DNA from: Hungatella sp.
Lineage (GTDB): Bacteria; Bacillota; Clostridia; Lachnospirales; Lachnospiraceae
NCBI GenBank assembly: GCA_022796015.1
Contig: JAAWHU010000028.1
Span: 1-38,373 of the forward strand
Length of the DNA: 38,373 nt
Reading direction: 5' to 3'
Shown here: one piece after another, positions 1 through 442 of the stretch
How positions within the stretch are numbered: position 1 is the first letter of the stretch
Layout of the letters: each line of letters begins with the position of its first letter
Position numbers and translations under genes: made by a program
Notes under the pieces: generated by a model
Database searches by the model: none
The model's input: the letters and a program-made list of their open reading frames with translations, nothing else
Told to the model about the DNA's origin: nothing

Positions 1-11
1 CTTTCGCTTAG

Positions 12-310
12 GTTGCCGCAGCAGCGGTACTAAGCTCGCAAAAGACACGAGCTAAGGACCGGCGCGGCAAATGTCCCTCACCGGGAATACAAGTCCCTCC
101 GAACTACATTCCTGGCAGGCCTGAATGAAGGGCGCCGAAAATGAGCGCCTTCCGCAAAGCATTCTCCGGCCGGGATTCTTTCTTTCGGTGCATTTCTTTC
201 GAGTCGCCGGGATAGCAGTCTTGCCGGGACATAGATATCCGATGAGGGGACATTTGCCTCGCCGGTCCTTGGCTTGTGTCTTTTACAAGCCTAGTGTACT
301 GTCTGGATTA
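12..310 (+). repeat. Long imperfect inverted duplication, candidate structured RNA or palindromic element
   Basis: Positions 40-80 are complementary to 243-284 with one mismatch (65/259), one bulge near 246 and a few G-T pairs. Weaker inverted similarity continues inward (81-135 against about 185-242) and outward (about 12-38 against 286-310). Local hairpins are also visible: 33-38 with 48-53 (AGCTCG/CGAGCT), 271-276 with 286-291 (GGCTTG/CAAGCC), and 129-135 with 145-151. The two arm hairpins differ in sequence yet both keep perfect pairing, and their loops (39-47, 277-285) are complementary to each other. At arm-to-arm differences the pairs are G-U when read as plus-strand RNA. The element may start before the window. 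I do not recognise a known RNA family. A MITE-like palindrome is the main alternative. Confidence 0.6.
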
Positions 311-349
311 TATCTGGTGAAACTCCGAAGAATAAATTTTCATCAGCAA

Positions 350-364
350 GACGGACCCTCCGTC
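350..364 (+). other. Short perfect hairpin before the M14 peptidase promoter
   Basis: GACGGA (350-355), a 3-base loop and TCCGTC (359-364) form a perfect 6-bp stem. There is no T-run directly after it, so it is not a typical terminator. It may be the 3' end of the preceding structured element. The rest of 311-413 shows nothing else recognisable. Confidence 0.35.
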
Positions 365-413
365 GATCTCCTGAACGAAAAAGCGTCCTTAAAAAAATGT
401 AAGAAATATTTCG

Positions 414-442
414 TTGACCCGGGGATAGATTTAAAGTAGAGT
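414..442 (+). promoter_or_regulatory. Promoter of the M14 peptidase gene
   Basis: A -35 box TTGACC (414-419) and a -10 box TAGAGT (437-442) are separated by 17 bp, which fits a sigma-A promoter. Transcription would start near 449. This supports translation from the ATG at 467 rather than the in-frame ATG at 449. Confidence 0.6.

Follow-up and report, generated by a model that had tools for sequence, protein, structure and literature searches.

A dispersed MITE-like palindromic element with a conserved, predicted folded core in Hungatella and related bacteria

The bcr1 repeat of the Bacillus cereus group has been outlined as an intergenic, repeated and MITE-like sequence that is partly transcribed (PMC3446304), and it is entered elsewhere as a stem-loop family of 147-167 nt (PMC2267715). 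REP sequences and BIMEs are characterised as palindromic and extragenic and as occurring often in inverted pairs (PMC3733652). The element described here has the same three properties as REP/BIME sequences with their RAYT transposases, as these are portrayed in that account: it is palindromic, mostly extragenic and often found in inverted pairs. Compensatory changes in hairpins have been ascribed to template switching, a process of DNA replication (Monttinen and Loytynoja 2022; PMC8794818). No paper dealing with the repeat was recognised by its title or the start of its abstract. A set of 3161 candidates could include it (PMC8040213); the main text of that paper mentions neither Lachnospiraceae nor Eisenbergiella.

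The window copy and its relatives

The window is a contig of 38,373 nucleotides (C71) from the genome of a Hungatella sp. (G000), and its first base falls inside the element. The contig start truncates this dispersed palindromic element, so that window 1-386 comprises its right part. The reverse complement of bases 1-79 of another contig, C123, is 100% identical to window 1-79, thus the element is split over C71 and C123, and its left end lies on C123, up to base 145. The features of the window copy are as follows.

1-386, no strand: right part of a two-unit palindromic element, recognised by the exact overlap of 79 bases with C123 and by copies elsewhere; the terminal inverted repeats are 370-386 and, on the left, C123:129-145
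1-112, folded strand minus: unit 1, with the core and one arm, the second arm lying past the window start; match to model R1 at C71:1-72, minus strand, E 6.5e-13, the arm being taken from the sequence
21-63, minus: core hairpin of unit 1, GCCGGTCCTTAG...CTTAGTACCGCTGC, with its distal hairpin at 33-53; conserved across copies
113-209, no strand: spacer separating the head-to-head units; related spacers occur in further two-unit copies
210-294, plus: unit 2, inverted, with the 5' arm, the 5' half of the core and the distal hairpin 271-291; match to R1 at C71:210-357, plus strand, E 1.1e-8; compare L002, L004 and L021
291-350, plus: incomplete member of a second repeat family with CTAGTGTAYTGTC... 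ends; its junctions are CTAG (left) and GCAAG (right)
370-386, minus: terminal inverted repeat of the right end, one change away from ATGCTTTTTCGTTCAGG; identified by the shared ends

Judged from its sequence, the window copy is a chimaera of the first element and a second repeat family. The core of unit 2 is interrupted after CTAG (291-294) and the first element resumes past GCAAG (346-350). Window 291-355 alone, with the rest absent, has matches on contig C18 of the same genome and in G005, G007, G016 and G024. Fuller palindromes of the second family are found in L020 (about 1501-1665, with CTAG ends) and L036 (about 1400-1570), where they are separate from the first element. This second palindromic family, with CTAGTGTAYTGTC-type ends, is present in several genomes of the genus and appears to be joined to the first element at CTAG. 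An ORF of 104 amino acids at 125-439 has no Pfam match. The stretch at about 386-420, upstream of an M14 peptidase-like gene (449-1666), gives short matches in five genomes of the same genus (G003, G006, G007, G017 and G023) and is possibly a common promoter or leader.

An earlier note had interpreted the start of the window as a plus-strand RNA that alternates between one long helix and a pair of kissing hairpins. The long inverted repeat is real (29-77 with 247-295, 49 nt, 88% complementary), the hairpins at 33-53 (AGCTCG...CGAGCT) and 271-291 (GGCTTGT...ACAAGCC) are present, and 1-310 folds far better than its shuffles, of which 0 in 100 were as good on either strand. The sequence thus contains both of the proposed folds. 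The two hairpins are, however, one and the same stem occurring once per unit, and the conserved fold is internal to each unit, with unit 1 on the minus and unit 2 on the plus strand. The supposed preference for the plus strand disappears because both strands of 1-310 fold well (z -9.4 for plus and -10.9 for minus against shuffles). A strong core match is found at 12 places in the genome, the window included, with one core at 8 of them and two inverted cores at 4, so the alternation of two hairpins and one helix is not conserved. In the window itself unit 2 is broken by the second repeat. An RNA switch of this kind is therefore extremely improbable, and the helix of about 40 bp is, as far as the letters tell, unit 1 paired with its own inverted copy and no designed switch. 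One of the eight single-core places, C124, looks like a two-unit copy minus one core.

The element is dispersed. With window 1-420 as query it was found at 15 places in the same genome, partial copies counted: C71 together with C123, C21, C79, C124, C130 (two), C135, C134, C162, C56, C133, C126, C147, C22 and C39. It is present in 8 of 26 genomes of the genus and, in a survey of the family with model R2, in 118 of 299 genomes and 117 of 298 genera; judging by named records the carrier family is Lachnospiraceae. A survey of the phylum with R2 gave 4 of 299 genomes, all four from the window's family, under stricter filters that could miss weak relatives beyond it. In surveys of more than 40 genomes, which used these filters and scored ten candidates per genome, copy numbers are lower bounds. 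When 150 candidates were scored in each of two genomes, Eisenbergiella tayi DSM 26961 gave 135 matches, which may include reverse-strand echoes since these were checked for part of the rows, and the complete genome CE91-St56 gave 31.

A motif scan of species genomes found at least 114 stretches. Among the 80 listed, the titles are mostly Lachnospiraceae, Eisenbergiella, Blautia, Butyrivibrio, Mediterraneibacter, Hungatella and unclassified Clostridiales or Clostridiaceae, with one bin labelled Muribaculaceae and one Lactobacillus rogosae. Eisenbergiella and Hungatella both belong to Lachnospiraceae in the taxonomy. Viral contigs held 0 stretches with the exact core pattern, and a blastn search of phage and plasmid records with one copy from the window's genome as query rendered no match.

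The earlier note had recognised no known RNA family, and this agrees with the search that was run: the window has no Rfam match at the gathering threshold, and 1-500 has none up to E 10. Rfam 15 gave nothing for the element on 11 related loci either, the sole match being a separate ZTP riboswitch. This ZMP/ZTP riboswitch lies at L045 1970-2049, directly downstream of a two-unit copy. HEARO, twister and HDV are examples of RNA families described in Rfam. The CGAAUGGGA motif resembles the HDV ribozyme; the topology differs, and the likeness was dropped. If the present view is right, a structured element occurs in about 40% of the sampled genera of the family, with no Rfam 15 family where tested.

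The folded core and the pairing of the arms

Each unit, oriented GCCGGTCCTTRG...YTTAGTACCGCTGC, has a size of 150-300 nt and consists of a long stem P1, a short helix P2, the stems P3 and P4, and a small hairpin P5 with a GNRA loop. The base of P4 is invariant and its distal part variable. The core is predicted to be a three-way junction that caps a long copy-specific stem, and the fold of a single sequence by itself has the same junction. Internal loops are conserved and some core bases are invariant; the core is near-invariant across many genera while the arms vary. Extra hairpins of tens of nucleotides, seen by eye, have grown within P3 or P4 in L040, L044 and L053, where the core motif is retained.

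The earlier note had pointed to differences that are compensated within the hairpins, and covariation is indeed very strong in the conserved core. An alignment of 22 same-genus copies (A1) has 96.4% of cells paired, and 28 of its 49 pairs have undergone changes in both bases. Of 28 units in all, the alignment excludes two that are cut by a contig end and four others, namely L019, L039, L053 and a single unit of L052. Covariation scores 0.501, compared with 0.141 after shuffling (sd 0.011) and 0.055-0.103 in slid controls, and the weakest helix, P2, has 84.5% of cells paired. Two further alignments, A2 and A3, were fitted to model R1; A3 was built from 63 selected loci and took in no match with an E value above 1e-9. 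The covariation therefore rests on A1 and on an alignment-free test in which arms were re-paired between copies. Each distinct P3 strand was represented once in this test, which gave 71 of 135 copies. The arms of one copy matched each other better than re-paired arms did in P3 (6.23 v 3.51 of 8), P4 (4.17 v 1.76 of 5) and P1 (18.1 v 11.3 of 20).

A GNRA loop closes P5 in 129 of 139 copies; six have another loop and four no such hairpin, while 7 of 146 copies were too close to an end to be scored. The loop types are GAAA (44), GAGA (41), GGAA (19), GCAA (16), GGGA (6), GCGA (2) and GTAA (1). In the GNNA loops that were counted the third base is always a purine.

Compensatory changes are also abundant in the long stems. 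Sixteen E. tayi copies, compared over 110 stem columns, have 286 cells in which changes on both sides have produced another Watson-Crick pair, and at 72 of the 110 pairs two or more Watson-Crick types occur. The mismatches in these stems are G-T in 27 cells, A-C in 34 and others in 43, and over 139 copies the counts are 154 G-U, 191 A-C and 533 others. The earlier note had described G-U pairs at two differences between the arms; over the copies the arm mismatches have no excess of G-U. The wobble counts in P3 (17 G-U v 15 A-C) and at positions 1-5 of the distal stem (6 v 2) do not support RNA selection there. A G-U excess in the distal hairpin (36 v 1; 111 v 2) was considered as proof of RNA and rejected, 105 of the 111 being at loop positions 6-7.

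An RNA strand under selection should be enriched in G-U. Because this bias is absent, template switching in DNA, rather than RNA selection, probably maintains the pairing of the arms; selection for perfect pairs is the alternative. The flanks of 18 copies were also compared as inverted repeats: four rows match at 4-5 of 5 bases, compared with 1.4 after shuffling (p 0.03), one of them (L332) being also a direct repeat and another the doubtful L248. Such flanks, too, agree with template switching. The element might serve as a natural case for separating covariation caused by RNA selection from that caused by template switching, since core and arms can be compared within one molecule.

Ends, insertion sites and neighbours

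The ends of the element are shared between copies. If up to 3 changes are allowed, the terminal repeat ATGCTTTTTCGTTCAGG is matched 34 times in the window's genome, against 10 for a control. ACTCAAACTTCGC, the inverted repeat of a 297-bp subfamily in E. tayi, has 28 matches there against 2 for its control. The reference copy of this subfamily, L262:18471-18767 (297 bp), is aligned over its full length by 16 other copies, with both ends within 6 bases. The five bases flanking each side are exact direct repeats in 5 of 18 rows and agree in at least 4 of 5 bases in 9 of 18. Shuffled flank pairs reach the latter level in 1.3 rows on average, and 0 of 5000 shuffles reach nine. Seventeen of the 18 rows come from E. 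tayi and one, L324, from a different genome; the nine include neither L324 nor L248, whose membership is doubtful. The 5-bp target duplication is seen in one E. tayi subfamily, the one tested, and in the window's genus it is mostly invisible by eye. Element lengths range from 297 bp to about 525 bp, with no coding capacity found. The shared terminal inverted repeats, the fixed-length duplication in the E. tayi subfamily and the short non-coding sequence are those of a MITE.

Comparison of orthologous sites gave both absent and apparently decayed copies. At site C of E. tayi (C1 near 674 kb) the insertion is absent in CE91-St56, G638, G635 and G645. Short stretches separate the two flanking genes in these four empty orthologues and are too diverged to display one clean copy of the duplicated five bases. 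When three E. tayi sites were compared with CE91-St56, C was empty, A was ambiguous with an apparent relic of an arm, and B was ambiguous with a palindrome lacking the core (L330). Decay in place thus seems to occur as well. In the window's genome, the copy near 55.6 kb on C130 is missing at the orthologous site of G007, where there is a different stretch of about 60 bp.

A partner that could encode its own transposase was searched for by means of the ends. The unpaired ones among the 28 E. tayi end matches were read around and gave no pair flanking a longer gene, and none was found with the ends of the window's genus in the four stretches read.

By the test set in the earlier note, a sequence with target-site duplications at many scattered copies, but lacking covariation, would be a transposable palindrome. 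Scattered copies and duplications were found, but covariation is strong. A plain transposable palindrome, with the core as a functionless hitch-hiking remnant, agrees with the multiple copies, the common ends and the lack of any ORF with a known domain. It is nevertheless very unlikely, for the core would not be expected to stay near-invariant over many genera when the arms do not. Since the core is nearly constant over more than 100 genera and neither the ends nor the arms are, the core must be under selection.

One candidate for such selection is a function for the host. The core of a MITE-like repeat might be a folded RNA within host transcripts, acting in mRNA stability, attenuation or protein binding, as has been proposed for REP and bcr. 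The GNRA loops, the conserved internal loops and the invariant core bases fit this reading, and so does the location, mostly between ORFs: 103 of 110 copies are not inside an ORF of at least 90 amino acids and seven are. The neighbours point the other way. Orientation relative to them is opposite/opposite for 33 copies, same/same for 20, divergent for 19 and convergent for 9, with a neighbour missing for 29, so that no fixed orientation was found among the 110 copies with crude ORF calls. Comparison of ORFs of at least 90 amino acids, four per side, at the loci from the species-genome motif scan gave no recurrent neighbour family past common-looking ones such as ABC transporters and regulators (names by eye). 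The stems also lack the wobble bias. A host RNA is in our opinion possible, if rather doubtful. A recurrent neighbour gene was also considered as a helper of the element and rejected, only common-looking families being recurrent. At L131 7048 and L218 3701 a copy lies between secA-like and release factor 2-like genes (names by eye), which is perhaps an older shared insertion.

Alternatively, the structure might be read as DNA. A folded single-stranded hairpin could be the substrate of a structure-reading recombinase or an HUH enzyme, comparable to attC sites or the ends of IS200/IS605. The structure is held while the arm sequence varies, mismatches are without strand bias, and the DNA fold of one copy has nearly the same shape. 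Loops of the type d(cGNNAg) are stable in DNA too, but the invariable purine at the third position of the counted loops is a mark against this explanation. So is the 5-bp duplication, which is not known as a mark of such enzymes. The Y1 domain PF01797 is found in three of the six element-bearing genomes of the genus that were searched (G007, G008 and G015) and absent from the other three (G000, G002 and G003). A Y1/RAYT transposase as mover was rejected on this distribution, with 0 matches in the window's genome, which is 88.6% complete. A DNA hairpin that serves as such a substrate is on the whole unlikely.

The explanation we favour, with about an even chance of being right, is a damaged MITE-like element that is mobilised in trans and whose folded core is needed for propagation. 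A transposase from other elements would cut at the terminal inverted repeats, template switching in DNA replication would maintain the complementarity of the arms, and the folded core, be it RNA or single-stranded DNA, would provide a signal for propagation. The element is multi-copy and has no host partner, and the simplest reading is therefore that the core serves its own propagation. It would do so either as RNA, with which the GNRA loops and the invariant internal loops agree, or as a hairpin of single-stranded DNA, with which the lack of wobble bias agrees. A transposase that reads the ends would, however, predict that the ends are more conserved than the core, and the opposite is observed, which counts against this explanation. 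More tentatively, the copies might represent a mobile class throughout Lachnospiraceae in which the folded junction, as RNA or single-stranded DNA, determines mobility instead of the terminal repeats, and in which template switching rewrites the arms; we regard this wider proposal as possible, not as probable.

Comparison with known systems

The hairpins of Monttinen and Loytynoja 2022 are, as presented there, similar in that a process of DNA replication explains compensatory changes. In that presentation it is a mutational process in known RNA genes, whereas here it is proposed for a mobile repeat.

The element is no REP. REPs are 20-40 bp long and carry GTAG or CGTC tags, whereas the units of this element are 150-300 nt long, with terminal inverted repeats and 5-bp duplications. 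Moreover, the Y1 transposase does not track the element as would be expected of a RAYT.

The likeness to bcr1, as far as that family is described in its sources, is one of style: both are intergenic, repeated and MITE-like, in a comparison of descriptions and not of sequences. Unlike bcr1 in those descriptions, the element belongs to a different host group, has much longer copy-specific arms and extends over more than 100 genera. With MITEs in general it shares shortness, lack of coding capacity, inverted ends and target duplication. What distinguishes it from them is the deep conservation of its core, a predicted three-way junction that carries a GNRA loop; an autonomous partner, moreover, was not seen in the stretches read. 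The deep conservation of a folded tip beneath changing arms sets the element apart from both MITEs and bcr1.
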